Virus record (IMG/VR): IMGVR_UViG_3300046683_000404
Span: 1 to 42,654 of that record
Source: a virus
Length of the DNA stretch: 42,654 bases
Strand: one strand, 5' to 3'
Notes under the pieces: model-generated
What the model saw: only the letters and a program-made list of their open reading frames with translations
Told to the model about the DNA's origin: nothing
The model's database searches: none
Translations under genes and position numbers: made by a program
In this document: positions 11,144 through 31,905 of the stretch, piece by piece
Numbering within the stretch: the stretch's first letter is position 1
How the letters are laid out: each line of letters opens with the position of its first letter

Positions 11144-11191
11144 GCGCAGTACCCCTGTTCTGATTGACGGCTGTTCAGGTCGGACGGGACG

Positions 11192-15468: not shown

Positions 15469-15502
15469 GATGGCGAGCCTCCTGATTCTGGGAAACGGAC
15501 AT

Positions 15503-15553: not shown

Positions 15554-15609
15554 ATGCGACAGCGCCGCGAATCCGTGCCGGATCGCGGATGGTTTAGGTG
15601 GTGCGGCGG

Positions 15610-16374
15610 TCAGCCGCTTTCGGGCCCGGCGCCAGCAGCGCGGGCCTCAAGCTCCAGGTCCCCGGACACGATCGCGCGGGCCTCAGCGAGGCTCAGCGAG
15701 CGCGACGCCCGGCCCGGAAGGAGACGTCGTACCGCAGCCAGTTGTTCGGCTGCGCGCTCCGCATCGCCGGCGCCGGCCGCGCCGAGGGAGCGCAGTTCGG
15801 CGACCGCGTCCTCCGGGGCCACGCAGGCGAGGTAGTCCAGGACGGAGCGCATGTTCAGCTGCGCGCTGGTCGCCGGGTTCGCCCCGAAGTTCACGACGCT
15901 CACGTCGCCCTTGTGGAGGGAGACCTCGGTGAGGCGGCGCTGCGAGTCGTCGTCGGACCAGGCGTCCTTCTTGACGCGGAACGCGAAGCTCATCTCGTCC
16001 ATGTCGCCGCGCGCCATCTTCGTTTCCAGACGCTGTACGTCGGGGTCCCGGCGGTCCAGGTCGGCCTTGACGAGCAGCCCGCGGGCATCGGTGTCCAGGT
16101 GCAGCGTGCCGGACTTCGTGCGGGCCAGCGGCATGCCCTCGTGATTGATGAGCAGATGCACGTCCGGCTTGTTGGCCAACGTCACGGCGAACGCCCGACG
16201 GTCCACGACCTCCGTCCAGCCACGCGGAGCTCCACCGAGCACGTCATACGGGTTGTCGAAGATCGAGGCGTATCCGGTCAGGTTCAGCGAGTCGCCGATC
16301 TGCCGCAACTCGAAATCAGTCGCGGCAATCGTGCGCCGCTCCGGGGCGTCGATGAGCGTCCGGCGGTCAACCAT
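15610..16374 (-). CDS. Prohead protease, HK97 type (U35), 254 aa
   Basis: Cleaves the capsid delta domain during maturation. ATDFELRQIGDSLNLTGYAS, FDNPYDVLGG and LLINHEGMPLARTKSGTLHL hold the candidate catalytic His78; the partner serine is Ser129 in GDMDEMSFAF, followed by FRVKKDAW and VSLHKGDVSVVNFGANP, all typical of the U35 family. The C-terminal 50 residues are an alanine/arginine-rich helix. The start overlaps the portal stop by 8 bp. Confidence 0.93.
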   Translation of the reverse strand: MVDRRTLIDAPERRTIAATDFELRQIGDSLNLTGYASIFDNPYDVLGGAPRGWTEVVDRRAFAVTLANKPDVHLLINHEGMPLARTKSGTLHLDTDARGLLVKADLDRRDPDVQRLETKMARGDMDEMSFAFRVKKDAWSDDDSQRRLTEVSLHKGDVSVVNFGANPATSAQLNMRSVLDYLACVAPEDAVAELRSLGAAGAGDAERAAEQLAAVRRLLPGRASRSLSLAEARAIVSGDLELEARAAGAGPESG

Positions 16375-17662: not shown

Positions 17663-19186
17663 TCAGAAGATGCTCTGCAGCACGTCGTAGCTGGCTGCGT
17701 CGAGCAGGTGCGATCGGGTCTGGAAGGACCAGCGGGCCAAGGACATTGCCACCAGCGGACTGATGTCGACCTCCGCGCCCCTCACCGTCCAGGCGATCGT
17801 GTCCCCGCTGGTCTTGGTCTTCGCTCCGGCGACCGCCACATCCAAATACCGGTTGGGCACATACCGGAACGACTCCTCGCGGACCGCCTCCAGCACCTGG
17901 CCGGCAGCCGCAGCCATATCCACCGCGCCCGTCACCGCCAGGTCCCCGGACTCCGGAACCTCTAGGTCTTCGGGCCGCTGAAAACCCGCCTTGTCCAACT
18001 CGGTCTGCAAGAACGCGAACGTGCCCCGGCCCATCGCCACCGCCACCGGCCCGAGAGCGTCCCGCAACTCCACCAGCCGAGGCAGGAGCCACTTCGAGCC
18101 GGGCCGGTAGTCCGCGAGCTGCACATGCCCGAGGCCGTCCTCACGCAGCCCGTACACGCAGATCGCCGCGTAGTCCCGCAGCGGCGCCAGATCCACACCG
18201 ATCGCCACGCCGCCCGTCCGGCGCGACTCGGCATCGGCCATCCGCGCCCACGCCGCCGCGTCGATGACGATGTTGCCCTGCGACTGGCGCGGCCAGATGC
18301 ACAACCGCTCCCGCGCGAACCCGACATCACCCATCGACCGGCGCTCACGCAAGACCGTCTCAGCGGTCAGCCGGATTCCCATCGCCGGGTTCGACGCCGC
18401 CCACAATGCACGGTCGTCCAGGTCGATCCTGTCCAGATGATCGAGGTCAGCGTCGACGCCCCAGTCCCGCCACCCGAGAGAATCATCCCCGCCGACGTCC
18501 GCGCGGGCCTTCAGCGCGAACATCACCTCGCCGCTCCCGCCGTTCAGCGGCGGCGTCGAGGTGTAGACGATCTGGGCATTCGGCCGTGCCGCCATGGCCG
18601 GCATGAGCGCGTCCTGCTGCTCAAGGGTGAACGCGAAACTCTCGTCGATGATGACCAGGTCACCGGAGAAGCCCCGGCCGCTGCCCTTGGACCGGGCAAC
18701 GAACTTCACGCGGGCCTCGGTGTCGAGCCGCTCGAAGCCCTCTTCGCCATTGGTGTTGACGATCTTTACGAGGACGCCGCCCACATCGAGCAGGTTCTCG
18801 TTGGTCCCCACCTGCTTGCCCAGACGCCTCAGCAGCGTCCGGAAGCGGCGGAATGCCTCCATCGACGTCTTGTACTCGTGCGCCGACCACATGATGAGCT
18901 GCTCGCCCAGCAGCAAGAACCCCGCCAGCGCCCGGATCTCCAAAATGGAGCCCTTGCCGTTCTGCCGGGCGACGATCTCGCCGTACTCGTAGCACGCCCA
19001 CTTGCCATCGGCCCGGCACGCCAGCAGCATGTCGATCGCGTCGGCCTGCCACGCGTCCGGGACCAGCCCGGCCCTGGCCGCCAACTCGCAGGCCTCCGGC
19101 CCGAGGCTGTAGGCATACGGCGGAGCCAGGTCAACCCGAGGCTTCGCGGCGCCTCTCAGCGATGCGCGCACTGAGGTCCGAGACAC
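17663..19186 (-). CDS. Terminase large subunit, 507 aa
   Basis: ATP-driven DNA packaging motor with nuclease. The N-terminal ATPase has GEIVARQNGKGSILEIRALA (adenine/Walker A region), IMWSAHEYKTSMEAFRRFRT and the Walker B strand FSGDLVIIDESFAF. The C-terminal nuclease has GGVAIGVDLAPLRDYAAI and acidic residues near MGRGTFAFLQTELDKAG. I choose GTG at 19186 because GGAGG lies six bases upstream; this overlaps the small-terminase gene by 56 bp. A longer reading to 19261 lacks a ribosome site. Confidence 0.93.
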   Translation of the reverse strand: MSRTSVRASLRGAAKPRVDLAPPYAYSLGPEACELAARAGLVPDAWQADAIDMLLACRADGKWACYEYGEIVARQNGKGSILEIRALAGFLLLGEQLIMWSAHEYKTSMEAFRRFRTLLRRLGKQVGTNENLLDVGGVLVKIVNTNGEEGFERLDTEARVKFVARSKGSGRGFSGDLVIIDESFAFTLEQQDALMPAMAARPNAQIVYTSTPPLNGGSGEVMFALKARADVGGDDSLGWRDWGVDADLDHLDRIDLDDRALWAASNPAMGIRLTAETVLRERRSMGDVGFARERLCIWPRQSQGNIVIDAAAWARMADAESRRTGGVAIGVDLAPLRDYAAICVYGLREDGLGHVQLADYRPGSKWLLPRLVELRDALGPVAVAMGRGTFAFLQTELDKAGFQRPEDLEVPESGDLAVTGAVDMAAAAGQVLEAVREESFRYVPNRYLDVAVAGAKTKTSGDTIAWTVRGAEVDISPLVAMSLARWSFQTRSHLLDAASYDVLQSIF

Positions 19187-19475
19187 CCACGACCTCCGCA
19201 CTGCTCGTCTCCGAAGCCGGAGCATTCCGCCGAAGATCTGCCAGCAGGGATCGAAGAACACCTGACTGCTGCCGGGCCTCAGCCATAAACTTGAGCATCT
19301 CGGCGTAGTGGGCCCGGTTCTCCTCCACCAGCTCGTCGAGGATCTGCAGCCGGTCAGCGATCCGGCAGCCCTCCTCTAGCAGCACCATCTGGCCGGCCGT
19401 CAGGGTGCCTTCGGCGAGGACATCGGCCCACAGTTGGCGGCCTCGGGGTGCGAGTCCGGCAGGGTCCGGAGCCAT
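19131..19475 (-). CDS. Terminase small subunit, 114 aa
   Basis: DNA-recognition partner of the packaging motor. MAPDPAGLAPRGRQLWADVL, then LTAGQMVLLEEGCRIADRLQ and a long helix LVEENRAHYAEMLKFMAEAR match the phage P27-like/actinophage small terminases: an N-terminal HTH region and a coiled C-terminus. ATG 19475 is preceded by GGAGGT at a good distance; in-frame ATGs at 19490 and 19496 are less well placed. It overlaps the large subunit, so coupled synthesis is likely. Confidence 0.82.
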   Translation of the reverse strand: MAPDPAGLAPRGRQLWADVLAEGTLTAGQMVLLEEGCRIADRLQILDELVEENRAHYAEMLKFMAEARQQSGVLRSLLADLRRNAPASETSSAEVVGVSDLSARIAERRREASG

Positions 19476-20673: not shown

Positions 20674-20874
20674 TTAGTCAAGCTGCTTGAGTTTCTGGAG
20701 CGCTTCGAGTTCGTCGAGGTCGATGAGGGCGCGTCCTCGGTGGTCGTGGCCGTGGCGGGTGAGGGCGCCGCGGTGGAGCCATGAGCGGAGCTGCGCGGGC
20801 TTCACGTCGGCCGCCAGGGCTGCGGCCTGGGTGTCGGCGAGGCGGGGCTCGGTGGTGGGCTGCATGACTCCCAT
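20674..20874 (-). CDS. MerR-like winged HTH protein (excisionase- or regulator-like), 66 aa
   Basis: Starts at 20874 (MGVMQPTTEPRLADTQAAAL) or 20865. The core ADTQAAALAADVKPAQLRSW then LHRGALTRHGHDHRGRALID is a small winged-helix HTH with the LxxWLxRG turn of MerR/excisionase families, followed by a short helix LDELEALQKLKQLD. It sits downstream of the FtsK/TraB gene and directly after two palindromes (20957-20991) that could be its operators. In mobile elements such proteins act as Xis/RDF or repressor; which one is inference. Confidence 0.6.
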   Translation of the reverse strand: MGVMQPTTEPRLADTQAAALAADVKPAQLRSWLHRGALTRHGHDHRGRALIDLDELEALQKLKQLD

Positions 20875-20951
20875 GATGCCCTGTGGGGCCTTTTTCGCGG
20901 TGCCGCGAGGATGGTCGAAACCCGAAACTTGGCAGCTCAGGGCCGATATCA

Positions 20952-20995
20952 GGGCCGAAACCGGTTTCACCTTGATCCGAAACCGGTTTCGGCCC
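20952..20995. promoter_or_regulatory. Tandem palindromes nested in a 17-bp inverted repeat (operator or terminator)
   Basis: GAAACCGGTTTC at 20957-20968 and CGAAACCGGTTTCG at 20978-20991 are each palindromic and their centres are 22 bp apart, about two helical turns. Together with flanking GGGCC/GGCCC they make a perfect 17-bp stem with a 10-nt loop. They lie 8 bp after the FtsK-like stop and 77 bp before the HTH start. They fit a dimer-binding operator for the HTH protein, or a terminator without U-run. Confidence 0.65.
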
Positions 20996-21002
20996 CGAAC
21001 GG

Positions 21003-23099
21003 CTACCCGTCGGCCTCTCCGGCGTCCTCCGGAAGGTCCGCGTACCGGACGCCCTTGGCGCCGCCGCAGCACTCCCGGATGCTGATCTGCCGGGTGGTCA
21101 CCTTGTGCGGCTTCAACGCGGCGCTGAGCATCGTCGAGCGGGCCCCCGCGTCCGGCTCGTCCATCCACAAGCCGTACAGGTCGGCCCGGTACTTGGCGAG
21201 GGCCTCGACGAGCCGGTGTGAGTGGACTGTGTCGACGCCGTCGGGCCAGATGGCGCGCAGGTGGTCGACGACGGTCTCGATGTCGAGTTCGGCAACCTGC
21301 TCGCCCACGGACTGCCCGGTCAGCGTGCCGGCGGCGGTGCGCAGCGCCAGCGCCCTTTTGCCGATGTCTTCGGCCTCGGTCTGCTTGATGAACGCCGCCC
21401 GCACCGTGATGCCTTCACGGCCGCGGGCCAGGATGCCGGTGCCCTGCTCGTCGACGCTGATGTCGGTGGCGCGCAGGCCCCGGTCGTAGGCGCCGGTGCC
21501 GAGCACGTTGTTGTTGGCCCTCCAGTCCATGACGGCCAGGCACAGCCGTGTGCCGACCGAGCTCGATACGGAGGTGGGCAGGCTCGGGGCGTCGGGGTTC
21601 TGGGTGAGCAGGATCAGGATCAGCCCGTAGGCGCGCCCCTTCTTGATCAGGCGGGTGCACAGGGCGGCGGCTTCCTCCTTGTAGTCGGGGTGGGTGAAGA
21701 GCTCCTGGACCTCGTCGACGACGATGACGCGCGGGCCGAGGTTCTGCTCGGGGTACTTCTCGGACAGAGCGCGGGTGACCTTGCGGCCCTCCGATACCTC
21801 GGACGCGGGCAGGGACTTGATGAACTTCGCGCGCCGCTGATACTCGGCGATCCCGGAGCGCAGGCCGGCGAGCGCGGCCTCCAGGTCCTCGTCCTCGTCG
21901 CCGGACACGTAGCGGTGGCAGACGGGCTTGACGGAGTCCAGGTCGCCGGAGCCCTTGAGCTCGTAAATCCACAGCTCAGCGGTCGGGTCGAGGGCGACAC
22001 CGAGGACGATGGCCAGGGCGCACGAGGTCTTGCCGGATCCGGGGATGCCGCCGGCCAGCAGGTTGGAGTACATGAGGGTGATGTCGATGAGGTTGCCGCG
22101 CGGGTCGAACCCGAAGGGCAGCGGCTGGTACACGTCGGCCTGGCCGTCCTTCATCAGCGGCCACAGCTTGCGAGGTGCCTTGGCCGGGTCGCTCTGGGCG
22201 ACCCACAGCACCAGGCGGCCCGGGTGGGCGCTGCGGTCGCCCTCGGGCCACACCGTGGAGATGGGGCGGCGCATGGCGGCGGCGAGGGCGGCGCGCTTCT
22301 CCAGTACGGCGGTGGCTTCGATGCCGGGCGGCAGGTCGACCTCGGCGCGCCAGCCGGGCCCGTCGCGCTGGACCTCGGCGGCGAACTCGACGCCGCGCCG
22401 TCCCTTCTTGCCTTCGATGCCGATCGCGGCCAGGGCCTCGAACACCTCGGTGCTGTCGAGGGGTCGCATATGGCGGACGGACACGTACCGGGTGATGAGC
22501 GGCCGGTCGGCGCGGCGCCCGGCCACGCCGAGGGCGGCCAGGCATGCGATGCCGGCGAGGGCGGTCCAGCCGGGGACGATGAACGCCGCCACGGTGGTGA
22601 CGATGGTGGTGGCTGCGGCCACGGTGATGGACATGATGCGGCGGGGCCGGATCCGGCGGGAGCGTTCGCGCGACAGCGACAGCCAGGCCTCGATGTCGGC
22701 GGTGGTGGCGGCTTTGGCTTCGACGGGGCGGGCTTCGGCGTCGACGACCCACCGGAACCACTTCACGGTGAGCCGCCAGGCTCCGCGCGGTGAGCGGCCG
22801 GTCAGGCGCACGACGTAGACGGGGATGCGGACGGTGTGGAAGGCGGTGACGTGGGCGAGGTAGCCGGCGGTGTAGCGGGCGGCGGTGGTGAACTCGGTGG
22901 CGTTGCGCAGGAAGGTGGGGATGACGGGCGGCGCTTCCTGCAGGTAGGCGCGGCGTTCGGCGATCCATGTGCCGTCGGGTGCGGCGGTGTCGGGCAGGTC
23001 GACGGGGCGGGGGACTTCGACGGCTTCGACGTACTCGGGTTCGGGCTCGGCGGTGTCGGTGTCGGTGTCTTTGACGAGGCGGAGGACGTTCTCGGTCAT
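21003..23099 (-). CDS. FtsK/SpoIIIE-type (TraB-like) DNA translocase, 698 aa
   Basis: A membrane-anchored AAA+ motor that pumps double-stranded DNA. Residues 155-200 hold two membrane segments (IMSITVAAATTIVTTVAAFI, GWTALAGIACLAALGVAG). Walker A is GGIPGSGKT (350-358, Lys357), Walker B VIVVDEVQELF (Asp462, Glu463), followed by the sensor LILLTQNPDAPSLPTSVSSS. The C-terminus has a winged-helix-like segment (VEALAKYRADLYGLWMDEPD). This architecture is that of the transfer proteins of actinobacterial AICEs and plasmids. Unusual in a phage: it could move DNA between hyphae or segregate the element. Start ATG 23099. Confidence 0.88.
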   Translation of the reverse strand: MTENVLRLVKDTDTDTAEPEPEYVEAVEVPRPVDLPDTAAPDGTWIAERRAYLQEAPPVIPTFLRNATEFTTAARYTAGYLAHVTAFHTVRIPVYVVRLTGRSPRGAWRLTVKWFRWVVDAEARPVEAKAATTADIEAWLSLSRERSRRIRPRRIMSITVAAATTIVTTVAAFIVPGWTALAGIACLAALGVAGRRADRPLITRYVSVRHMRPLDSTEVFEALAAIGIEGKKGRRGVEFAAEVQRDGPGWRAEVDLPPGIEATAVLEKRAALAAAMRRPISTVWPEGDRSAHPGRLVLWVAQSDPAKAPRKLWPLMKDGQADVYQPLPFGFDPRGNLIDITLMYSNLLAGGIPGSGKTSCALAIVLGVALDPTAELWIYELKGSGDLDSVKPVCHRYVSGDEDEDLEAALAGLRSGIAEYQRRAKFIKSLPASEVSEGRKVTRALSEKYPEQNLGPRVIVVDEVQELFTHPDYKEEAAALCTRLIKKGRAYGLILILLTQNPDAPSLPTSVSSSVGTRLCLAVMDWRANNNVLGTGAYDRGLRATDISVDEQGTGILARGREGITVRAAFIKQTEAEDIGKRALALRTAAGTLTGQSVGEQVAELDIETVVDHLRAIWPDGVDTVHSHRLVEALAKYRADLYGLWMDEPDAGARSTMLSAALKPHKVTTRQISIRECCGGAKGVRYADLPEDAGEADG

Positions 23100-23133
23100 G
23101 CTGGTGGTCCTGTCTCCTGCTGGGGGATAGGGG

Positions 23134-23177
23134 CCCGGGGCGGCCGGTCGCTTCGCAGGCTGGACGGCCGCCCCGGG
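23134..23177 (-). terminator. GC-rich hairpin upstream of the FtsK-like gene
   Basis: CCCGGGGCGGCCG (23134-23146) pairs with CGGCCGCCCCGGG (23165-23177) around 18 nt. It lies between the 57-aa gene (stop 23181) and the FtsK-like start. It would weaken read-through into the translocase gene; no separate promoter is apparent. Confidence 0.6.
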
Positions 23178-23180
23178 GCG

Positions 23181-23354
23181 TTACTGCTTCTTGGCGCGCT
23201 TGCGGGCCTGCTCGTCGATGCGTTCGAGCTTGCGGTCGATGTCGCTGAGGTCGACGTTCTCGCCGGCCAATGAGCGCTTGCAGCCGCGCGCGATCAGTGC
23301 GGCCCTGCGCCACTTCTCGCCCGTCGTGTACTCGGGCTTGTCGTCGTCGGTCAT
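23181..23354 (-). CDS. Small basic protein of unknown function, 57 aa
   Basis: MTDDDKPEYTTGEKWRRAAL, then IARGCKRSLAGENVDLSDID and a basic helix ending QARKRAKKQ. ATG overlaps the upstream stop as TGATG, so it is translationally coupled. Highly charged and helical; possibly DNA- or membrane-adjacent. Function unknown. Confidence 0.6.
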   Translation of the reverse strand: MTDDDKPEYTTGEKWRRAALIARGCKRSLAGENVDLSDIDRKLERIDEQARKRAKKQ

Positions 23355-23665
23355 CACTTGCCGCCTTTCCGGATGTCCTGCCAGACCTGCCGCAGGATGA
23401 GAACGCAGATGGTCAGGGACACGGCGGAGATGGCCACCGCGATGGCGGACAGGGCGAACGCCAGCAGGAAGATGGAGCTGCCGACTCCGATGCCGATCCA
23501 CTTCGCGGCCTGCCCGGACTGCTGCGGGGCCGGCGCCTGGTGATGGCACTGCGGCGGCTGCTGGGCAACCTGCGCGGCCTGCACCGCGGCGAGCATCATG
23601 GCGAATTGCTCGCCCTGCCTGGCGGCCTCGACCGCCTCCTGGCTGGCCTTGCTGAGGTCGGTCAT
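23354..23665 (-). CDS. Membrane protein of the transfer operon, 103 aa
   Basis: A cytoplasmic N-terminal helix (MTDLSKASQEAVEAARQGEQ) and a glutamine/proline linker precede two membrane segments (AKWIGIGVGSSIFLLAFALS, AISAVSLTICVLILRQVW). It ends with a short basic tail. Start overlaps the DUF2637-like gene's stop (ATGA). Such small membrane proteins accompany TraB-type translocases in plasmids as Spd (spread) proteins; that role here is inference. Confidence 0.6.
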   Translation of the reverse strand: MTDLSKASQEAVEAARQGEQFAMMLAAVQAAQVAQQPPQCHHQAPAPQQSGQAAKWIGIGVGSSIFLLAFALSAIAVAISAVSLTICVLILRQVWQDIRKGGK

Positions 23666-24636
23666 GCGTAGCCGCCTCCGCCCTGGCCGATGCCGTCGCG
23701 GGACTTCTTGGCGCGGGACAGGACGGTGCGGACGTAGCCGTCGTCGACGGTGATGCGGTGCCGCTGCTGGACGAAGCTGGCGATGTCGGCGGCCCTGGCG
23801 TCGGGGCCGAGGAGGGACGCAGCGTCGACGATCGCGGCGGACAGGGTGACGGGCGGGAGCTCTGCGACCTGCGGCGCATCAGGGTCGGGGTCGGGCGCAT
23901 CACCTCTCTCGATGGTGATGCGGGGGTCTCGGTCGGCGAGGACCAGGGCGACCTGGACGGCGTCGACGATGACGCCATAGCCGACGAGGAGCGCGGCGAG
24001 TTCGGCCGGCGGCATGTCGGGCTGCGCATCGTTGGCGATGCGGACCGCATCAGCGGGGTCCATCTCGGCGAAGCGGCGCCGCAGCACGTCCGTGGCGGAG
24101 TGCGACCGGATGGGACTGGGGTCCTGCTGGGACCTCTGTCCGTCGGCCTCGATGTGCTCGACCGCCCGGGACTTCACGGCCTTGCCGGCGCGGGCGGGGG
24201 CGAGGAGCCAGGCCCAGCCGCCGAACACCGGGAGCCGGTACGGCCGCTCGCCCATGTCGGCGCGCTTGACCGCGCGGGGTCCTGCCCACGACATCTCGGA
24301 GACGGCGAGCAGGCCGATGGTGGGCACCGCGAACAGTACGGCCGCCGGGGCGCCGCCGCCGATGAGGTGGGAGTGGGTGACGTTGAGGTACACGGACACG
24401 GTGGCCATGAACAGGGCGGTGACGCGTGCCCCGAACGCGGACCGGCCGGCGGCGGAGGCTTCGGAGGCGAGGTGCAGGCAGGCGTAGGCGATGCCGTCGA
24501 ACACGGCGACGGCCGCGGCGGCGATGGGCTGGGGGGTGTCGTAGTGGCGGGCCACGGCGTACAGCGACCAGCCGGTGGTGGCGAGCGCGGCGACCGAGAC
24601 GACGGTCAGGGCGAGGCGCCAGGCGTTTCTGTTCAC
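23662..24636 (-). CDS. DUF2637-like membrane protein, 324 aa
   Basis: GTG 24636 with GGAG six bases upstream; the reading from 24837 is a shadow. N-terminal half with four membrane segments: LALTVVSVAALATTGWSLYA, IAAAAVAVFDGIAYACLHLA, ARVTALFMATVSVYLNVTHS, AAVLFAVPTIGLLAVSEMSW. The C-terminal half is cytoplasmic, with two helical domains (VLRRRFAEMDPADAVRIAND and VDDGYVRTVLSRAKKSRD, an HTH-like end). This resembles DUF2637 proteins found beside TraB in Streptomyces AICEs and plasmids (family knowledge). The C-terminus may bind DNA (inference). Confidence 0.65.
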   Translation of the reverse strand: MNRNAWRLALTVVSVAALATTGWSLYAVARHYDTPQPIAAAAVAVFDGIAYACLHLASEASAAGRSAFGARVTALFMATVSVYLNVTHSHLIGGGAPAAVLFAVPTIGLLAVSEMSWAGPRAVKRADMGERPYRLPVFGGWAWLLAPARAGKAVKSRAVEHIEADGQRSQQDPSPIRSHSATDVLRRRFAEMDPADAVRIANDAQPDMPPAELAALLVGYGVIVDAVQVALVLADRDPRITIERGDAPDPDPDAPQVAELPPVTLSAAIVDAASLLGPDARAADIASFVQQRHRITVDDGYVRTVLSRAKKSRDGIGQGGGGYA

Positions 24637-24821
24637 GTGAGGCTCCGGAAGGTGCGGGCGATGCGCGGCCAGGCGAGCAGGCCGGCGATGAAGGCCCACA
24701 CGGTGGGCTGACTTGCGGCGGCGACCAGGAGGGCGCCGAGGAAGCCGAGGACGGCCGTGCCGAGCGCGGGGTACGCGACGAGGAGGCCCAAGAGGGCGCC
24801 GAGGATGAGCCAGAGCTTCAT
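24633..24821 (-). CDS. Two-helix small membrane protein (Spd-like), 62 aa
   Basis: MKLWLILGALLGLLVAYPAL, then VLGFLGALLVAAASQPTVWA and FIAGLLAWPRIARTF form two hydrophobic helices with a short basic C-terminus. Coupled to both neighbours by overlapping start/stop codons (GTGA). Likely a transfer- or spread-type accessory protein. Confidence 0.6.
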   Translation of the reverse strand: MKLWLILGALLGLLVAYPALGTAVLGFLGALLVAAASQPTVWAFIAGLLAWPRIARTFRSLT

Positions 24822-25189
24822 CGGCCGTCCTCCTCAAGGAGTCGGGCGAGGCGCGGGCCGAGGGAGCGCACGAGGCGGGCGCACTCTTCGAGGGCGGCGG
24901 CGGTCTCTTCGAGCAGCTCGGCCGTGTCTGGGTACACGGCGACGTCGACCTCGACGGCCAGGTACGGCCGGGTGTAGTCGGCGGTGCCGTACTCGTACTT
25001 GCCGACTCCGGTGGTGATGACGACTTCCCCGATCGAGGTGGGCACCCTGTGGCGCTTGTTCTCGCCCGCGTGGGAGATGTCCGCGCGGATGGTGCCGTCG
25101 GTGTGCTCGATGCCGCACCAGGCCGGGTCGGTGAACGTCACGTTGCCGGCGTCGTCGGTGCGGATCGTGATGCGGCGCGGGGCGGTCAC
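24818..25189 (-). CDS. DUF6907-like protein, 123 aa
   Basis: GTG 25189 overlaps the next-upstream stop. TIRTDDAGNVTFTDPAWCGI then EHTDGTIRADISHAGENKRH has the PxWC...H...H pattern seen in actinobacterial plasmid/AICE proteins assigned to DUF6907. The C-terminal half is an alpha-helix of heptads (VYPDTAELLEETAAALEECA). Function unknown. Confidence 0.55.
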   Translation of the reverse strand: MTAPRRITIRTDDAGNVTFTDPAWCGIEHTDGTIRADISHAGENKRHRVPTSIGEVVITTGVGKYEYGTADYTRPYLAVEVDVAVYPDTAELLEETAAALEECARLVRSLGPRLARLLEEDGR

Positions 25190-25356
25190 TCGGCACCCCC
25201 GGCGCGGTCGATGACGGTGAGGGCGGCGCGCATCGTGGACTGCAGCTCGCCGATCTGACCGGACAGGTCACGCACGTACCCCTGACCGCGGGGCTTGGGC
25301 TCCAGCGCGTCGGCGAGCAGCTGGCGGACGAGGGCGAGGGCTTCGGACTCGGTCAC
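25186..25356 (-). CDS. Small helical protein, 56 aa
   Basis: GTG 25356 overlaps the TGA of the upstream gene. MTESEALALVRQLLADALEP, then KPRGQGYVRDLSGQIGELQS and a final helix. Predicted helical, no motif recognised. Confidence 0.5.
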   Translation of the reverse strand: MTESEALALVRQLLADALEPKPRGQGYVRDLSGQIGELQSTMRAALTVIDRAGGAE

Positions 25357-25532
25357 GGCCGTACCCCCTCGATCGTCTCGACGAGGTTGCCGATGACGAC
25401 CTCGGCGCGGCCGAGGAGGTGGCTGAGCTGAATGTCGGTGACGGTGCTGTAGTCGATGTCGGCGATGTCGACGAGCAGCAGCTGGGCGCTGGCGGTGCGC
25501 AGCTCGGTGAGGGTGTCGTTGGGCTTGCTCAT
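25353..25532 (-). CDS. Small helical protein, 59 aa
   Basis: MSKPNDTLTELRTASAQLLL, then VDIADIDYSTVTDIQLSHLL and GRAEVVIGNLVETIEGVRP. Coupled ATGA with the sigma-like gene. No family recognised; the hydrophobic middle is short and not clearly a TM segment. Confidence 0.5.
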   Translation of the reverse strand: MSKPNDTLTELRTASAQLLLVDIADIDYSTVTDIQLSHLLGRAEVVIGNLVETIEGVRP

Positions 25533-25939
25533 CGGGCACCGCCGATCGTCGCGGTGCGGAAGCCGGTGCGGACGGGCTCGTAAGCGCCGGAGGCGGCCGG
25601 GGTGAGGTTGCTGTTGGCGAACGACCAGTGGCCGGTGTCGACGGCGGTCTCGCGCTGGTTGCGGCACAGCCGGTAGTGGTCGCTGATGCGGCGGGACGCG
25701 ATGGCGGCGAGGAGGCCGAACGGCTTGTCGCCGATGGTGCGGCCGGCGGTGGTGTAGCTACGCCACACGCTGATGAACGTCTCGGCGGCGAGGTCCTCGG
25801 CGAGCTGGCTGTCGGGGCGCGGCAGCCGGTTGGCGATCCAGCCCTCGATACGGGGCCGGTACGCGGCGTAGAGCTCGCTGAACTGGACGTCGGGGGTGAT
25901 CACGCCGGGCATGGGCGCGCTAAAGTTCTGGTGGTCCAC
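25529..25939 (-). CDS. Sigma-70 region 2-like protein lacking region 4, 136 aa
   Basis: FSELYAAYRPRIEGWIANRL, then DSQLAEDLAAETFISVWRSY and LLAAIASRRISDHYRLCRNQ are the sigma region 2.1-2.4 pattern (core-binding helix and -10 element recognition). The protein ends within 35 residues of region 2, with no region 4 HTH. It opens the transfer operon. GTG 25939 has GAGG and AGGAG motifs upstream; an in-frame ATG (MPGVITPDVQFSELYAAYRP) is nine codons in. It may need a partner for promoter -35 binding; the nearby HTH gene at 26024-26269 is a candidate. Confidence 0.7.
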   Translation of the reverse strand: MDHQNFSAPMPGVITPDVQFSELYAAYRPRIEGWIANRLPRPDSQLAEDLAAETFISVWRSYTTAGRTIGDKPFGLLAAIASRRISDHYRLCRNQRETAVDTGHWSFANSNLTPAASGAYEPVRTGFRTATIGGAR

Positions 25940-26002
25940 GGGAGCCTCAATCTCCTAGTGGTCAAGTGGTCCCCGGCCGGCGGTGCAGTCGCCTAAGCCG
26001 GG

Positions 26003-26023
26003 GGCCCGCTTGCTTTGCGGGCC
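26003..26023 (-). terminator. Terminator of the HTH gene
   Basis: GGCCCGC (26003-26009) and GCGGGCC (26017-26023) pair around a 7-nt loop, immediately after the TAA of the HTH gene (26024). Confidence 0.7.
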
Positions 26024-26269
26024 TTATGAAGTTGTGTTCGGGGAGTCGGTGGGCGGTGCAGTCGCCGTTCCGTACTCGCGGATGGACTTCCGTACTGCGC
26101 TGACGTCGATCCCGATCTCTCGGGCGACAGCCGATTTGCTGCCGAGCTCTGTGACGCCTTCCTCGAAGGCGAGTGCTCGCCGTCGGGCGCTTGCTGAGAG
26201 CTCGGCTTGCAAGTCGCGCTGCAGCCGGTTCTCGGCCTCAACGCGTTCGCGCCACGGGATCTCTGGCAC
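26024..26269 (-). CDS. HTH protein (sigma region 4-like), leaderless, 81 aa
   Basis: Starts at GTG 26269 (MPEIPWRERVEAENRLQRDL). A coiled/helical N-terminus leads to the HTH EEGVTELGSKSAVAREIGID then VSAVRKSIREYG, in the layout of region 4-type or homeodomain-like DNA-binding helices. The gene has its own promoter and terminator. The GTG lies 7 nt after the -10 hexamer, so the mRNA probably starts at the codon itself; a longer reading to 26314 would place the promoter inside the gene. Together with the region-2-like protein it could form a split sigma factor (hypothesis). Confidence 0.65.
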   Translation of the reverse strand: MPEIPWRERVEAENRLQRDLQAELSASARRRALAFEEGVTELGSKSAVAREIGIDVSAVRKSIREYGTATAPPTDSPNTTS

Positions 26270-26276
26270 GCGTCCC

Positions 26277-26305
26277 ACAGTACTAGGAACCAGGGTCCTA
26301 GGCAA
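26277..26305 (-). promoter_or_regulatory. Leaderless promoter with palindromic operator in its spacer
   Basis: On the minus strand: -35 TTGCCT (26305-26300), 17-bp spacer, -10 TACTGT (26282-26277), then 7 nt to the GTG at 26269. The spacer and its edge hold a 19-bp near palindrome with arms CTAGGAACC (26283-26291) and GGGTCCTAG (26293-26301), 8 of 9 positions matching. CTAG is rare in such GC-rich DNA. A repressor bound there would block RNA polymerase. Confidence 0.7.
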
Positions 26306-26318
26306 TGCCAACATGCCG

Positions 26319-26486
26319 TCACTTCCCCACCGCAGAGCGGGCCTTGAGCACCTCGTCGAGCAGACGCTTCGCCTCGGCCAGGTGACGAACGCAGATCTTG
26401 AGCTCTGCGTCAGCCACCACAGCCTCGCCAGTGCACTGGTTGCCGCGGCCGGACACCACACGGCAGGTCACGTACTTCGCGGTCAC
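26319..26486 (-). CDS. Small CxxC-type protein, 55 aa
   Basis: MTAKYVTCRVVSGRGNQCTG, then EAVVADAELKICVRHLAEAK. GTG 26486 has GGAGG four bases upstream and overlaps the previous stop. Three cysteines and a histidine (CVRH) suggest a small zinc ribbon. Function unknown; last gene of the operon from 29012. Confidence 0.6.
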   Translation of the reverse strand: MTAKYVTCRVVSGRGNQCTGEAVVADAELKICVRHLAEAKRLLDEVLKARSAVGK

Positions 26487-27121
26487 GATGCCTCCAGCAT
26501 CTCGGCCTGGGCGGCGCGCAGTTGCAGCCACCGGTCGGGGCCCCAGTCGGTTCCGCACCACCGGCAGGGCGCCGTTGCGGCTCCGGGGCGCAGCGTCACA
26601 ACGGCACCGCAGTAGCCCTCGACCGTGACCGTGGCGCAGTACCCGAGCCGCCGCGGCCGGTCGGCCGGCTCGACGGGGTCGACGACGCTGGCGATGGCGG
26701 CCGTGATCTCGGCGACCTCGCGGTCCAGGTCCCGGATGCCGGGGTGCTGGTCGCACAGCCACAGCAGGTTCGCCCGCAGGAATGCCACGGTGCCCGTGAC
26801 GGCCTGCTCGACCGAGCCCCGGAACGGCGGCGGCGGCCAGCGCAGCAACTCCCGCGAGTCGCGCTCCCATTCGGCGAGGCGCTCGATGCCGCCCCGGGCC
26901 CGCAGGTCGAGGACGTCCAGGCGCACGGGCAGCGGCGCCTCGTCCCGCACACGGGCCCCTTGGCGGTCGCCGGCGGGCGACGGGACCAGCCAGAGGGCGA
27001 GAGCCCGCCAGGCGCCCGGGAGTGCCTTCAGTCGGCCATCGAGGCGCTCCCGGCATCCGTCGTGCACGCGCACGGCCGCCGGATAGTCGCACACCTGACA
27101 AAGATTTTCGTAGCGGTCCAT
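26483..27121 (-). CDS. Zinc-binding protein of unknown function, 212 aa
   Basis: N-terminal MDRYENLCQVCDYPAAVRVH has a CxxC pair and an H/C motif (HDGCRERL), and the C-terminal APCRWCGTDWGPDRWLQLRA another. A helical middle (RANLLWLCDQHPGIRDLDRE) links them. The layout recalls actinophage early proteins of unknown role. TGATG overlap with the HNH gene. Confidence 0.6.
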   Translation of the reverse strand: MDRYENLCQVCDYPAAVRVHDGCRERLDGRLKALPGAWRALALWLVPSPAGDRQGARVRDEAPLPVRLDVLDLRARGGIERLAEWERDSRELLRWPPPPFRGSVEQAVTGTVAFLRANLLWLCDQHPGIRDLDREVAEITAAIASVVDPVEPADRPRRLGYCATVTVEGYCGAVVTLRPGAATAPCRWCGTDWGPDRWLQLRAAQAEMLEAS

Positions 27122-27819
27122 CAGGACGCCTCCTTCCGACGCGCGTGCCGGCCCTTCGCGACCATGTCGCGCATGTTGTCGGAGTGGGTTCCGGCGAAGA
27201 GGTGGCCCGGGTTGACGCAGGGCGGGTTGTCGCAGCGGTGGCAGGCGAGCAGGCCCTCGGCTATCGGCCCGTGGTGCAGCTCGTAGGAGTAACGGTGCGC
27301 CCCGACGTTGGGGGCGCCGGCGGGGCAGAACGTTCCGTAGCCGTGGTCCCCGCGGGCCGCGGTCCAGATCCAGCACGGACCGAGTTCCGGGACGAGCGTC
27401 GGGCCGTCCTTGTCCACGCGCATCCAGAAGCGGGTGAGTTCGTTCTCGCGCGGACGGAGGCCGATCAGATTGCCGTGCCTGAGCAGGCGCGTGTAGTGCT
27501 TCTTGCAGTACCCCAGACCCGAGTGCTGGCTCTCGCATCCATCGACCTTGCAGCCGTCAGCCGGGATGAAGACTTCGGCAACAGGGTCACCGTGCTTCTT
27601 CCACCGCCAGTAGTGCGTGCTGCACCAGCCACGGCCCTTGGTCGGCTGTGGGCAACCGTCGACGCTGCACTCAGAAGCGTGCTTACGGCGCAGCCTGTTG
27701 TTGTGGGCGGGCAGGAAACGAAGCGGCTGGCCCTTCACGTGGCCCCGGGCGATACGCGTTGCTGCGGCGATCGGCGCCGGCTGGCCGCATCCGCATTCGC
27801 AGAGTTTCGTGGTGCTCAT
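27121..27819 (-). CDS. HNH homing-endonuclease-like protein with zinc fingers, 232 aa
   Basis: N-terminal MSTTKLCECGCGQPAPIAAA, then two finger-like units SVDGCPQPTKGRGWCSTHYW and KVDGCESQHSGLGYCKKHYT. The C-terminal HNH_3 domain is FWMRVDKDG, then CWIWTAARGDHGYGTF, AHRYSYELHHGPI and LACHRCDNPPCVNPGHLFAG followed by THSDNMRDMVAKGR. It may act as a site-specific nuclease or homing endonuclease. It is embedded in an operon with no intron or intein visible. The start overlaps the preceding stop. Confidence 0.8.
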   Translation of the reverse strand: MSTTKLCECGCGQPAPIAAATRIARGHVKGQPLRFLPAHNNRLRRKHASECSVDGCPQPTKGRGWCSTHYWRWKKHGDPVAEVFIPADGCKVDGCESQHSGLGYCKKHYTRLLRHGNLIGLRPRENELTRFWMRVDKDGPTLVPELGPCWIWTAARGDHGYGTFCPAGAPNVGAHRYSYELHHGPIAEGLLACHRCDNPPCVNPGHLFAGTHSDNMRDMVAKGRHARRKEAS

Positions 27820-27983
27820 CGGGCCGCCTTCCGCTGGGCGTCTGCGAGCAGCTGCTCGTCCGCCTGGCGGCGCCTCCGCTCCCGGCGGGCGTCGAGGATC
27901 TCGTAGCCGAAGTGCATGGCGACGGCCAGCTCGAAGCCGATCGCGATGCCGGACAGCAGCAGGACGAGTTCGGTGTGGGTCAC
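27816..27983 (-). CDS. Short membrane protein, 55 aa
   Basis: GTG 27983 with AAGGGA upstream; overlaps both neighbours (GTGA and ATGA). MTHTELVLLLSGIAIGFELA, then VAMHFGYEILDARRERRRRQ and a charged helix: one membrane segment followed by an arginine-rich cytoplasmic helix ending RKAAR. It fills exactly the gap between its neighbours. Confidence 0.65.
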   Translation of the reverse strand: MTHTELVLLLSGIAIGFELAVAMHFGYEILDARRERRRRQADEQLLADAQRKAAR

Positions 27984-28219
27984 GGCGTGGTCCCTTCGGT
28001 GGGCTCAGTGGCGCTGAGGGCAGGGGTTTCGGTCTGGGCGAGACCCTTTCCGTCCGTAGCGCGGACGGAATCCGCCTCCAGCCGGGCGAGCTTCACGCGG
28101 TGCCGTGCGATGAGCCCGGCCTGCCTGGCGGCCTGCTGGGTGGCGCGCCGCCGCTTGTTGGCCTCGATGCGGCGGCGGGCCTGCTCGATCCGCTCGGCCA
28201 CGACGTCGTCGACGTTCAT
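27980..28219 (-). CDS. Basic helical protein, 79 aa
   Basis: MNVDDVVAERIEQARRRIEA, then NKRRRATQQAARQAGLIARH and RVKLARLEADSVR form an arginine-rich helix that could bind nucleic acid. The last 25 residues are low-complexity (T/P/E). Coupled by ATGA. Function unknown. Confidence 0.55.
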   Translation of the reverse strand: MNVDDVVAERIEQARRRIEANKRRRATQQAARQAGLIARHRVKLARLEADSVRATDGKGLAQTETPALSATEPTEGTTP

Positions 28220-28647
28220 GCGGCACCGCCGTGGTGGGCGGCGAGCAGGACAGGCAGGACCTGCCCGCGTAGCCGTTCGATCGCGGGCGTGGTCCGGCCA
28301 TCGCCGATGATCTGCCGCTGCTCGAAGGTCGATCGCTTCACCCGCCCGTACACCTTGGCGAGCGGGATGTTGGTGACGGCGACCAGGTAGCCGTGCTCCC
28401 GGTACGGACCGCTCTGGTAACCGCAGTGCGGGTAGCGGTGCAGGATGTCGCCGGGCTGGTTGGTGTGGTCACCGTGGATGTGCCAGTTCGCGCACCAGGT
28501 ACACCAGGCGTAGACGCTCACGAGGGAAGTCGCCTCGCGCGGGCGCCGGCCGAGGAAGCCGAACAGAGTGGGCGCCTTGAGCCGGGCGCGGTTCCGGCAG
28601 GCCTGGCAGAAGCATTCGCCCTGCGGGTGCTCGTGCACGTCGGTCAC
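28216..28647 (-). CDS. Zinc-ribbon-type protein, 143 aa
   Basis: MTDVHEHPQGECFCQACRNR (CxCxxC), then VSVYAWCTWCANWHIHGDHT (CxxC and HxxxH) and an alpha/beta C-terminus (KVYGRVKRSTFEQRQIIGDG). The cysteine/histidine clusters suggest two zinc sites. Found in the early operon; function unknown. Confidence 0.6.
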   Translation of the reverse strand: MTDVHEHPQGECFCQACRNRARLKAPTLFGFLGRRPREATSLVSVYAWCTWCANWHIHGDHTNQPGDILHRYPHCGYQSGPYREHGYLVAVTNIPLAKVYGRVKRSTFEQRQIIGDGRTTPAIERLRGQVLPVLLAAHHGGAA

Positions 28648-29012
28648 TGTGTCTCCTTGGGAAGCACGAGCTGGTGGCGGTGGTACTTGCCTTCGGGGTC
28701 GGCGGCGAAGGCGTTTGCGAGGTTGTGGGCGAGCTGGCGCACGAAGTCCTCCAGGTCGTCCCAGAGGTCGATCCAGCCGTCGGCGAACGGATACTGCTGC
28801 TCAATCCACACCTCTAGGGCTCGGCCGCAGCGGCCCTTGTGTGCGACGTAGATGGGGGTCTGCCGGTGCGGCCCGGGCTCACCGTCCTGGCCGATCGTGG
28901 TGGCCCACGTGACGATGCCCTGGCCGACGACCTGCTTGCGGCAGGTGTCGCAGATGAAGGCCGGGCAGTTCATGGCCTCGGGCGGACCGGAGCGGGCGAC
29001 GTACTCGATCAC
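28644..29012 (-). CDS. CxxC protein of unknown function, 122 aa
   Basis: MIEYVARSGPPEAMNCPAFI, then CDTCRKQVVGQGIVTWATTI with CxxC, a single C (KGRCGRALE) and an acidic helical end (FADGWIDLWDDLEDFVRQLA). First gene of an operon that starts just left of the iteron region; no consensus promoter seen. A later ATG (MNCPAFICDTCRK) is possible. Confidence 0.6.
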   Translation of the reverse strand: MIEYVARSGPPEAMNCPAFICDTCRKQVVGQGIVTWATTIGQDGEPGPHRQTPIYVAHKGRCGRALEVWIEQQYPFADGWIDLWDDLEDFVRQLAHNLANAFAADPEGKYHRHQLVLPKETQ

Positions 29013-29235
29013 GGTTTCTCCTCTGGTGGATGTGCGGATTGCGACTCTGTGTGGTGTCGGACCCTTTGGTGTCGGACCCGAAAGGTCCGACAGTGGTTCG
29101 CTGAGCGACCTGGGGTTTCGCGCGTTTCGTGAGTCTCATCTGAAGTGTTTTGTCTATTAATGTCCGTATTTAGAGAGAGGGACTGTCGGACCTTTGGGTC
29201 CGACAGGTCCGACGGTCCGACAGCACTCCCCGTAG
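29013..29235. other. Candidate replication origin: seven GTCSGAC iterons around an AT-rich core
   Basis: GTCGGAC at 29056, 29071, 29185 and its complement GTCCGAC at 29085, 29198, 29207, 29215 (7-mers). Two sets pair as hairpins: GTCGGACC/GGTCCGAC (29071-29078 with 29084-29091) and CTGTCGGACC/GGTCCGACAG (29183-29192 with 29197-29206). Between them, roughly 29120-29175 is unusually AT-rich (TTTTGTCTATTAATGTC). It lies directly downstream of the prim-pol/helicase gene. Iterons flanking an AT-rich segment are typical of theta-type origins; a regulator-binding or terminator role is the alternative. Confidence 0.6.
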
Positions 29236-31905
29236 TCAAAGCTGCTCCGGAGCGACCGAACCGGCAGCCAAGAGACCACCAGCCAGCGGCACCAGCCAGC
29301 CCTGCTCGCACCCGTGCTGGAGCGCCGCCGACCACAGAGAATCCGTCGCCCCGGACGCCCGGTACTTGTCGCGGTCCGGCTTCTTGATGCAGCTCCGGTT
29401 CACGTCGCGCACCGGGATCTCACCGGCCTGGCGCGTGAGGTAGCGGTGGGCGCGCTTGGCGACGTTCACGACGGACGGGTGTACGCCGTTCACGACCTCG
29501 TACACCGCCGCCTGAGCCTCCGCGGCCGTCAGGACAGCCTCCGCGCGCCGCGCGTCCTGCTCGGCCTGCACGCGCCGCTTGGCCGCGTCCTGGACCCTGT
29601 CGCGGACCTTCCTGGACGTCTGCCACATCACGGTGGCCCTATCCCAGTCCTCGGTCCGGACCGAGGTACGCCCGTGCAGGAGAGCGAGCAGCGCAGCGCA
29701 CTTCAACCGCCACAGTGGTTCGTGCGTGTCCAACGGGGCTTCGGCGCCGCGGCCGAAGGAGATCGCGAGGGCCAGCTGGTCGAGTTCGTCCGTGACGTGC
29801 GCGGGCACCGGGATGGTGGTGTTGTGGAGCCGGGAGACCCATGTCGTGACGGGGATGTCCTCTCCCTGCTGGGTGGTGACGGTGAGCGGCCCGGTGGTGG
29901 CCGGCCTCTTCTCGGGGGTGTCGGGGCCGAGGGTGGCGTGGGCCCAGGCGAGGCGCTGCGGGAGGCCGATGGAGCCCATCTCCAGCAGCTTCGCCGCGGG
30001 CTCTTCCTGTACGCCGAGCGACATGGACAGCGTGTAGCAGCCCTTGGGGATGGCGCGGCGGCGCTCGACCTCGGCGTTGGATGTGCCCTGCCGCTCGCTC
30101 ATCCACGCCTTGCAGAGAACGCCGTTGAGTGTGGCGGCGGCGGACATCTGCGCCATGGCGTCGAGGACGCTGCCCTCGGTGGCGAGAGCGTAGCCGCGGG
30201 TCCTCTTCTGCACGAGGATCTTCTTCTTCCCGTCCTCGTCATCGGGGTCGATGTCGAGTTCGAGGTAGGCGGCGATCAGGCCCTGCCCGGTGGAGATGTC
30301 GATGTAGGCGAGGTCGACGGCCGGGAACGGGGTAAGTTCTTCGGCGGTGTTCTCGGCCTGGCCCTTGCCGCTGCCGGACGGGCCGAACAGTCCGCAGTAC
30401 CAGCCGATCGTCGCTGGCTGGTGGATGCCGCTGTCCACGCGGACCGTGGGGTCTGCCATGGCCGCAGTGCGGGCGAGGACGGCATGAAGGACGCCGTCGG
30501 GTGAGGCGCGGCGGGCACGGGCCATCTGCCGGATTTGGCAGAGTGCGGCCGTGGCATTCCAGAAGGCGTCGGGAAGCCGGTCCGCGGGCTCGGCGGGCGC
30601 CTCGCCTGAGTCCTCCGGGGGTTCGTCCTGCGGTCCGTCCCACGGGTCGTCTGCGAGCGGCGCCCGCGCACGCTCGTCGTCCTTCAGGCACCGGCGTTTC
30701 ACCTCGGCGAGGACGGCGTGCGGCAGGTGTCCGGCAGGTCCCAGGGCGCGACCGCCGGCGGCGCGCATGATGTCGCGGGCGGCTTCGCTGACGTCGCCGC
30801 CGTAGTTGAGGTGGGCGTACAGCGTGCCGATGGTGAGCTTCTGTCCGGCGGGTAGTCCGCCGACCGGGAGGTCTGAGCGCTCCGACCAGTTGACCGCGAC
30901 GTGGTCGTTGCAGAGCAGGGAGTAGGCGCTGCTGGCTCGGTCGCCGTTCGCCGCGGGGCGGAGCCATTCCTCCCGGCCGTCGCCGTGCTTGCCCTGATAG
31001 GTGAACCCTGCCGGTTCGAGGATGTCCCCGAATCGCTGCATGTCGGCGAGGACATCGAGGGGCCCATCGCCGCTCGGCGGTCGCTGCCCGGACGGCCGGG
31101 CTTGACGCTGCGCCGGAACGGGGGTGCCGGTCCGTACTGCCTTCCGCTCGCGCTTCTCCCGCGTGGCCTGTTCCATCAGTTCGCGGGCGGCGGGCGCGAG
31201 ACGGTCCACGACCTCGTACAGCTCGTCGATGGTGTAGACGGTGCCGTTTCCCGGGCCGATGGCTGTGGGCCGCGCGAGTCCCTCCTTGCCGTTGACGGTG
31301 CCGATGAGCTTCATCAACCGATCGAGGTTGCCCACCTCGCTGTCCCACGACCAGCCGCACCGGTACGCGGAGGCCGCCAGGATGGTCTGCCATCCGGTGG
31401 TGAGCTCTTTGACGCGGGCGCGATCTTCCTCGTCCTTGATGACGTGCCGTTCGGCGAGGACCCAGCTCGGGTTGTAGCCGCCGCCCGACTCGCTCCAGCC
31501 GGTCGGGTCCGGCAGTCCTGATTCGGTGACGACCTTTACGACGGCCTCCGCGTCGGGCGGCGCGGGCAGATCGTCGGGTCCGGGCTTATGCCCGATGGTG
31601 CCGTAGTCGCCGTCGGCCCACAGGTAGGTGAGGCAGTGGGCGAGGTCTTCGCCGCCGCGGCCTTCTGGGGGGTGCTCGCGGAGCGTGGTGGTCTGGACAT
31701 AGATGCCCTTGGGCTTGCGGCGGCTGAGCTCCATCGCGTACTGGACGGCGCCGCCGAGGCCGGCGGGGTCTGTGGTGAAGCGGCGGCCAGCCCACCCGTC
31801 GGCGTCGGAGCACACGCTGAGCAGCCCCGGCGCCTCGGGGTACAGGGTCCCGAGCCAGGTCAGCATGACGTCCGGGTCGGCGGTCACCAGCTGTCCGTCG
31901 GTCAC
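29236..31905 (-). CDS. Replication protein: prim-pol plus helicase (RepPP-like), 889 aa
   Basis: N-terminal AEP-type primase-polymerase: YLWADGDYG (Asp98, Asp100), SGGGYNPSW (140-148) and RLMKLIGTVNGKEG (196-209) match the three hallmark motifs. A linker leads to a DUF3987/superfamily-3-like ATPase with Walker A GPSGSGKG (508-515), then VDLAYIDISTGQG and a C-terminal helical part. Prim-pol initiators (RepPP class) are one of the replication types of AICEs (established knowledge), and phages also use such proteins. GTG 31905 overlaps the upstream stop. It probably acts at the neighbouring iterons. Confidence 0.82.
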   Translation of the reverse strand: MTDGQLVTADPDVMLTWLGTLYPEAPGLLSVCSDADGWAGRRFTTDPAGLGGAVQYAMELSRRKPKGIYVQTTTLREHPPEGRGGEDLAHCLTYLWADGDYGTIGHKPGPDDLPAPPDAEAVVKVVTESGLPDPTGWSESGGGYNPSWVLAERHVIKDEEDRARVKELTTGWQTILAASAYRCGWSWDSEVGNLDRLMKLIGTVNGKEGLARPTAIGPGNGTVYTIDELYEVVDRLAPAARELMEQATREKRERKAVRTGTPVPAQRQARPSGQRPPSGDGPLDVLADMQRFGDILEPAGFTYQGKHGDGREEWLRPAANGDRASSAYSLLCNDHVAVNWSERSDLPVGGLPAGQKLTIGTLYAHLNYGGDVSEAARDIMRAAGGRALGPAGHLPHAVLAEVKRRCLKDDERARAPLADDPWDGPQDEPPEDSGEAPAEPADRLPDAFWNATAALCQIRQMARARRASPDGVLHAVLARTAAMADPTVRVDSGIHQPATIGWYCGLFGPSGSGKGQAENTAEELTPFPAVDLAYIDISTGQGLIAAYLELDIDPDDEDGKKKILVQKRTRGYALATEGSVLDAMAQMSAAATLNGVLCKAWMSERQGTSNAEVERRRAIPKGCYTLSMSLGVQEEPAAKLLEMGSIGLPQRLAWAHATLGPDTPEKRPATTGPLTVTTQQGEDIPVTTWVSRLHNTTIPVPAHVTDELDQLALAISFGRGAEAPLDTHEPLWRLKCAALLALLHGRTSVRTEDWDRATVMWQTSRKVRDRVQDAAKRRVQAEQDARRAEAVLTAAEAQAAVYEVVNGVHPSVVNVAKRAHRYLTRQAGEIPVRDVNRSCIKKPDRDKYRASGATDSLWSAALQHGCEQGWLVPLAGGLLAAGSVAPEQL

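Follow-up and report, generated by a model that had tools for sequence, protein, structure and literature searches.

The integrative conjugative elements of actinobacteria (AICEs) are defined by an FtsK/SpoIIIE-type Tra protein, an integrase and a replication protein of the RepSA, RepAM or Prim-Pol kind (Ghinet et al., 2011, PMC3218068). Translocases of the same type serve Streptomyces plasmids. In pWTY27, TraA (688 aa, two transmembrane segments) and the cis-acting site clt suffice for transfer. This site, which spans the final 16 bp of traA and the following 159 bp, is required for transfer and bound by TraA, and TraB reads repeats via helix 3 of its own winged helix (PMC3583192).

Phages, AICEs, TraB proteins and clt sites are all known kinds. 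Within the open-access literature (subscription papers and preprints being outside its scope), a search found neither a recurring phage family with the combination described here nor a phage site and an AICE site with a recognition code. Two individual elements come close. The phage-plasmid pPaSha2 of Pseudonocardia alni (CP052773), a circular 41.9-kb record, carries terminase, portal, capsid and tail genes alongside an FtsK (40% identity to the present one) and a DUF2637 gene. It differs in two respects: in the tree its FtsK groups on the AICE side, and no element like the one treated below is seen directly after ftsK; judged from its sequence, it is a separate combination of phage and FtsK. 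The Streptomyces phage Gilgamesh is an isolated phage with an FtsK-like translocase, but it has a 129-kb genome, a very long tree branch and 28% identity at 43% coverage.

The DNA analysed here (the window), an IMG/VR virus record, has 42,654 bases with about 69% GC and carries nearly all of its genes on the minus strand. On balance, we favour reading it as a temperate siphophage of Streptomyces equipped with a TraB-type conjugation unit, consisting of a membrane FtsK-like translocase and a cognate clt-like site.

Virion, integration and replication genes

By gene content the window is a temperate siphophage of actinobacterial, Streptomyces type, of about 42 kb. PHROG and Pfam scans recover the terminase large subunit (TerL), portal, protease, capsid, tape measure and integrase expected of temperate HK97-type siphophages of the Caudoviricetes. 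An earlier reading made from the letters alone (the sequence-only reading) had described a full terminase-capsid-tail-lysis set and a serine integrase, and both are borne out by the following matches.

2299-12560, minus strand: head-tail connector, tail tube, tape measure and tail genes (PHROGs)
14083-17638, minus strand: portal, head protease and major capsid genes (phrog_12, phrog_7053, phrog_2263)
17663-19261, minus strand: terminase large subunit (phrog_9, E 4e-71)
35988-37505, minus strand: large serine integrase (PF00239, E 3e-30; PF07508, E 7e-9)
41320-42216, minus strand: Rv2525c-type glycoside hydrolase-like lysin (PF08924, E 3e-26)

An AICE integrase is recognized by PF00589 or PF07508, and the latter is matched here at 36.3 bits. 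Adjoining the lysis genes, positions 40124-40780 encode a collagen-like Gly-X-Y repeat protein, probably part of a tail fibre.

The two ends share a direct repeat (1-804 and 41851-42654; 93.5% identity, 52 mismatches, first 99 bases identical) and continue on the same strand, with tail genes exiting at the left end and lysis genes coming in from the right. This arrangement fits a circular or permuted, near-complete genome. Because the repeat is inexact, circularity is not proven, and the argument from a perfect terminal repeat was dropped. The 804-bp repeat perhaps reflects a circular genome drawn from a mixed population.

Replication was assigned by the sequence-only reading to a RepPP-like prim-pol of the AICE kind, an assignment that does not survive closer comparison. 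Two features are involved.

29236-31905, minus strand: replication protein of the primase/polymerase-helicase type, 889 aa, phage lineage (phrog_28894, E 2e-30; DUF3987)
29051-29226, no strand: iteron cluster, candidate replication origin (all six GTCCGACA sites of the genome, in two groups flanking an AT-rich stretch)

Of the three AICE replication types, the Pfam search covered Prim-Pol (PF09250) and RepAM (PF12307); neither domain is found in the primase, and DUF3987 appears below cut-off only. The nearest relatives are primases of Gordonia, Mycobacterium and Tsukamurella phages and a protein of Nonomuraea plasmid III, a phage-plasmid bearing terminase, portal and capsid genes. Since these relatives are phage primases, the replication part is of phage lineage, and together with the Pfam result they lead us to reject AICE-type (RepPP) replication.

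The six GTCCGACA sites, which the sequence-only reading did not mention, all lie within 168 bp directly after the primase gene. Three relatives with related primases (L037, L058 and L152) carry other iterons at the same place, each with a differing 8-mer (GTAGGAAC, TGTCGGAA and GGGGGACA). The likeness to the rep-plus-iteron origin of pWTY27 (PMC3583192) suggests that the cluster is a replication origin. It is less likely to be a transfer site, given its location after the primase and a sequence that changes along with the primase. As to whether the element is a phage-plasmid, the window has a primase and iterons and a serine integrase as well, and its relatives are chromosomal prophages.

The FtsK-like translocase and its phage family

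The translocase gene lies upstream of the virion genes, in a group of small membrane and regulatory genes.

21003-23099, minus strand: FtsK/TraB-like membrane-anchored dsDNA translocase, 698 aa (PF01580, phrog_1358)
23354-23665, minus strand: small two-segment membrane protein upstream of ftsK, possible spread protein (hydropathy; 41 family loci)
23662-24636, minus strand: multi-TM protein with weak SpdB2/DUF2637 profile likeness (phrog_29416, E 2e-42; 16 family loci)
24633-24821, minus strand: small two-segment membrane protein (hydropathy; 39 family loci)
24818-25189, minus strand: DUF6907 protein (PF21848, E 1e-16; 26 family loci)
25529-25939, minus strand: sigma-70 region 2-like protein (PF04542, E 5e-8)
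26024-26461, minus strand: HTH protein, real start probably near 26267 (weak Cro/YdaS-type HTH; 25 family loci)

The FtsK/SpoIIIE domain that marks an AICE Tra protein (PF01580) is matched at 25.7 bits against a cut-off of 24 (E 9e-6), and phrog_1358 at E 1e-28, yet the NCBIfam equivalog for plasmid TraB is missed, with 15.5 bits against a cut-off of 800. In sequence terms the protein belongs to a related family outside the TraB equivalog and is of the AICE/TraB conjugation type. The two transmembrane segments claimed by the sequence-only reading are seen by hydropathy (residues 157-190), together with a RecA-like motor and a C-terminal winged helix. This is the architecture of TraB, a membrane anchor with an FtsK motor containing Walker A and a C-terminal winged helix; the Walker A motif reads GIPGSGKT, and G356, K357 and T358 are invariant among 25 sequences. 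An AlphaFold model built with 25 aligned homologues (mean pLDDT 76.5) places helices (627-665) and strands (670-685) in a winged-helix-like C-terminal domain, and its structural matches are dsDNA-bound FtsK motor domains (6t8o) and the conjugation ATPase TcpA. Values of dN/dS between 0.03 and 0.34 across pairs indicate purifying selection.

Full-length identity to AICE and plasmid FtsKs is 40-42%; in the plasmid search it reaches 40% both for an AICE-like Streptomyces plasmid and for pPaSha2. The AICEs compared, a Nonomuraea chromosomal element (L004; 35% identity) and the NBC_00562 plasmid (L002), share the FtsK family (35-46% identity in the main relatives), an integrase, a same-layout element directly after ftsK and a nearby DUF2637 gene; unlike the window, they lack virion genes and have AICE-type prim-pol or Rep proteins. 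pSVH1 TraB and pWTY27 TraA resemble the window protein as membrane FtsK-type translocases with a C-terminal winged helix, whose cis site consists of direct and inverted repeats. Identity to pSVH1 TraB is, however, only about 31-32% in the motor region (pairwise 31% over 369 aa, E 8e-37), and the window FtsK is phage-borne. Among 50,697 phage records, Gilgamesh gave the sole FtsK match, a weak one.

The neighbouring genes agree in part with the set proposed by the sequence-only reading. A DUF6907 protein and HTH proteins are present as described. For the DUF2637-like protein (23662-24636), Pfam DUF2637 is not matched and the hits are to the phage families phrog_29416 and phrog_10376; a weak likeness to SpdB2/DUF2637 proteins persists (BLASTP E 0.006; hhalign E 1e-4, probability 59%, 81 columns), and such a gene occurs in a minority of the family (16 loci). 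The small membrane proteins at 23354-23665 and 24633-24821 each show two segments and match no named family, which leaves their Spd-like assignment weak.

FtsKs close to that of the window were found in roughly 55 Streptomyces prophages and viral contigs, made up of some 45 contigs and 10 loci in Streptomyces genomes. Their identity is 65-98%, followed by a gap and then by AICE homologues at about 46% and lower. Of 51 records searched for a terminase, 39 have one, in many cases located a few kb downstream with the same orientation. For the 26 loci with an extractable TerL, median pairwise identity is 86% for FtsK versus 31% for TerL; clustering gives six TerL groups at 45% identity and a single FtsK group at 60%. 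Between the window and L005, the figures are 98% for FtsK and 30% for TerL. Nucleotide homology among relatives spans ftsK and stops at the far edge of the element behind it; FtsK and site are, by this comparison, a block common to these phages. In three members (G008, G009 and G023; L012, L013 and L027), TerL contains one in-frame TGA, which could mark a pseudogene, a sequencing error, or recoding or an intron.

A gene shared by such different phage backbones could be a moron, for instance for superinfection exclusion or defence, unrelated to DNA transfer, and PHROGs does place phage FtsK proteins under moron/host takeover. We regard this as extremely unlikely: no partner nuclease or effector is seen, a cis site is retained alongside FtsK, and the relatives are conjugation proteins in the same arrangement.

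In a sample of 393 Streptomyces genomes, 164 are FtsK-positive, mostly through AICE-type homologues; about ten have the phage-type FtsK and two a 54% relative. The 54% relative in G152 lies in a region with a terminase and ORFs reading as portal and tape measure. No member of the family was found among the isolated phages searched. Beside the prophage of Streptomyces scabiei (L153, about 3140-11169), the sequence reads as two integrase-like genes, one DUF2637-like and one relaxase-like gene, perhaps a tandem mobilisable element.

A tree of 65 FtsK proteins unites the phage family in one clade (24/24 rows, support 100/100), next to a group of AICEs and a few other virus-linked FtsKs, including that of pPaSha2; its root is uncertain (long branches, outgroup), and no direction of transfer is claimed. 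Because other virus-linked FtsKs are scattered among AICEs, FtsK and virion genes appear from the sequences to have been joined more than once. Placement in a phage-only clade points to an old phage-adapted relative of the AICE translocases and not to a recent AICE insertion; recent capture from an AICE, as the simple story, is rejected on account of this one old clade and of the 54% relative in the G152 prophage. The sequence-only reading had named phage-only branching without transfer activity as the outcome that would count against it; such branching is found for FtsK. As the clade stands apart from the AICEs, the function of the phage FtsK may have shifted.

Elsewhere in the tree, pPaSha2 (L003) and three further phage-plasmids or viral contigs (L045, L046 and L050) have AICE-type FtsKs of other branches. 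The element of L050 is of the GTTCC type, that of L046 of the AICE CTAG type. These may be independent phage/AICE combinations; among them pPaSha2 alone is closed and has every gene in one record.

The element behind ftsK and its AICE counterparts

Nearly all family members keep a noncoding element of about 100 bp, made up of GTTTCG repeats and palindromes, past the ftsK stop. The sequence-only reading had passed over it.

20910-21002, minus strand: clt-like cis site directly past the ftsK stop (palindromes GAAACCGGTTTC and GATATCG; repeated GTTTCG)
20674-20865, minus strand: small HTH (MerR/excisionase-like) protein just downstream of the site (ORF; MerR_1 weak, E 0.014; 44 family loci)

The phage element is laid out as CCGGTTTCGGATCAAG, a loop with GGTTTCAC, CTTGATCCGAAACCGGTTTCGCCCCCGATATCGG, a spacer and AGTTTCGAGTTTCGGG. 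GTTTCG occurs 4.9 times per 130-bp element versus 0.016 times per 130 bp elsewhere. Each locus has a single cluster. Its start is nearly always no more than about 20 bp from the ftsK stop, L059 being an exception with a distance of 548 bp. The core pattern is present in exactly one copy in each of ten prophage-bearing Streptomyces genomes (7-11 Mb) and absent from four non-carrier Streptomyces genomes, and a reversed control pattern gave 0 copies anywhere searched. The site DNA had no matches among isolated phages and plasmids. In some members, read by eye, the long-arm sequences switch jointly, GGATCAAG/CTTGATCC versus GGGAAGGGG/CCCCGACCC. The inner 22-bp segment GGTTTCACCTTGATCCGAAACC (about 20955-20995) is an exact inversion relative to L005:9806-9870, a hint of recombination or cruciform-driven inversion.

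The position of the element recalls pWTY27, whose clt, by its published description, abuts the 3' end of traA (PMC3583192). In AICE homologues the corresponding position holds an element with the same layout and different cores, for example GCTAGACCTAGC or GCTATCGATAGC; the AICE core is CTAGnnCTAG or CTAnCGnTAG, against GAAACCGGTTTC/GTTTCG in the phages. Over 132 loci, the 170 bp following ftsK contain CTAG[AG][CT]CTAG 84 times, compared with once in 2.53 Mb elsewhere.

The palindrome varies with the C-terminus of the translocase. In AICEs, the class of the FtsK C-terminus predicts that of the palindrome in 113 of 113 classified loci, a count from which 20 loci were omitted for unclassified C-termini and a few for want of a recognised core, and which is partly post hoc, since the classes were drawn on earlier loci and widened ('VAG', GGCC centre) after 60 further ones were viewed. 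Aromatic 'VWG' C-termini pair with CTAGnnCTAG (70/70), and non-aromatic 'xRR' or 'VAG' C-termini with CTAnCGnTAG (43/43). Among phylogenetically independent pairs of AICE homologues, 9/9 are concordant (sign test p 0.0039) on a quick tree built without the last 75 FtsK residues. In the phages, a CCGG motif in FtsK accompanies GAAACCGGTTTC in the site in 52 of 53 cases; site and C-terminus are nearly invariant inside that clade, and the co-variation is the one measured in AICEs. Such co-variation is the signature to be expected, at the level of sequence, of a clt transfer site read by FtsK. The pairing of pump and site, with the phage element as the putative clt-like cognate site of FtsK, is well supported.

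Palindromes between ftsK and the next operon might instead act in transcription, as an operator or terminator to which some other regulator, for example the small HTH protein, binds. The element is indeed palindromic, intergenic and upstream of the small HTH gene in many members, and SpdA2 binds palindromes in Streptomyces plasmids (PMC4170104). This explanation is nonetheless very unlikely in view of the nine concordant switches with FtsK's own reading domain, the absence of a second cluster from all loci, and downstream genes that differ between phages and AICEs. A simple terminator is rejected, as the minus, coding strand has no T-tailed terminator.

A packaging (pac/cos) or genome-processing site, with FtsK aiding packaging or concatemer resolution, would account for why, in many members, the site lies immediately ahead of the terminase genes. 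It would have to accommodate a TerL that swaps family (median 31%) against an unchanging site and FtsK, the presence in AICEs without an adjacent terminase of an element with the same layout and place, and a site type that tracks the FtsK C-terminus there. We consider it highly improbable, and a pac/cos role of the site itself is rejected, because TerL varies and the site does not.

Proposed transfer between hyphae or within one mycelium

Of the AICE-like transfer and replication module proposed in the sequence-only reading, the transfer half is supported, and strengthened by an AICE/TraB-type FtsK next to a clt-like site; the replication half is replaced by a phage-lineage primase. From gene content, conservation, the single-copy site, the same layout in AICEs and the AICE co-variation of site and reading domain, all read from sequence, a mechanism can be proposed. 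The serine integrase would excise the prophage, and replication from the primase/iteron origin would give circular phage DNA. By analogy with TraB, the C-terminal winged helices of FtsK would bind this DNA at the clt-like site, and a ring of FtsK, probably a hexamer, would assemble at the hyphal tip or septal membrane and form a pore. The ring could then pump the unprocessed double-stranded genome to the adjacent hypha or compartment; in some members the small, Spd-like membrane proteins would assist. We infer that phage DNA may pass between hyphae free of lysis, so that the phage would spread through the mycelium from cell to cell as well as in virions.

The main rival holds that FtsK and its site form a dedicated DNA pump within one mycelium, moving or rescuing phage or prophage DNA, as it replicates, across septa (infection spread, segregation) with no transfer between colonies. 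The same FtsK and site evidence applies to it, the hyphae of Streptomyces have septa, and Spd-type proteins act in intramycelial spreading (PMC4170104). In the known systems, however, a translocase with clt drives inter-mycelial transfer (pWTY27, PMC3583192), and a single site per genome suits loading for transfer at least equally. Confinement to one mycelium seems unlikely to us, though worth serious attention.

The idea of transfer between hyphae leads to a wider proposal, which we put forward tentatively and at somewhat less than even confidence. It posits a widespread group of dual-mode Streptomyces phages that combine virions with single-protein dsDNA conjugation and hold FtsK and clt constant amid swaps of the virion set, together with a recognition code shared by AICEs and phages. 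Under this code an aromatic residue would specify CTAGnnCTAG, a non-aromatic one CTAnCGnTAG, and the CCGG motif GAAACCGGTTTC. If true, the line between phages and conjugative elements as classes of transmission would fall away in mycelial bacteria, a single genome being able to take both routes.

Independently of the dual-mode proposal, the comparison predicts cis-acting transfer sites for many AICEs and offers a putative protein-DNA recognition code open to testing by simple binding and mating experiments. Candidate clt sites following the two-class code are found in more than 100 AICEs (L002, L004, L064-L133 and L155-L214), in the first 170 bp after ftsK.
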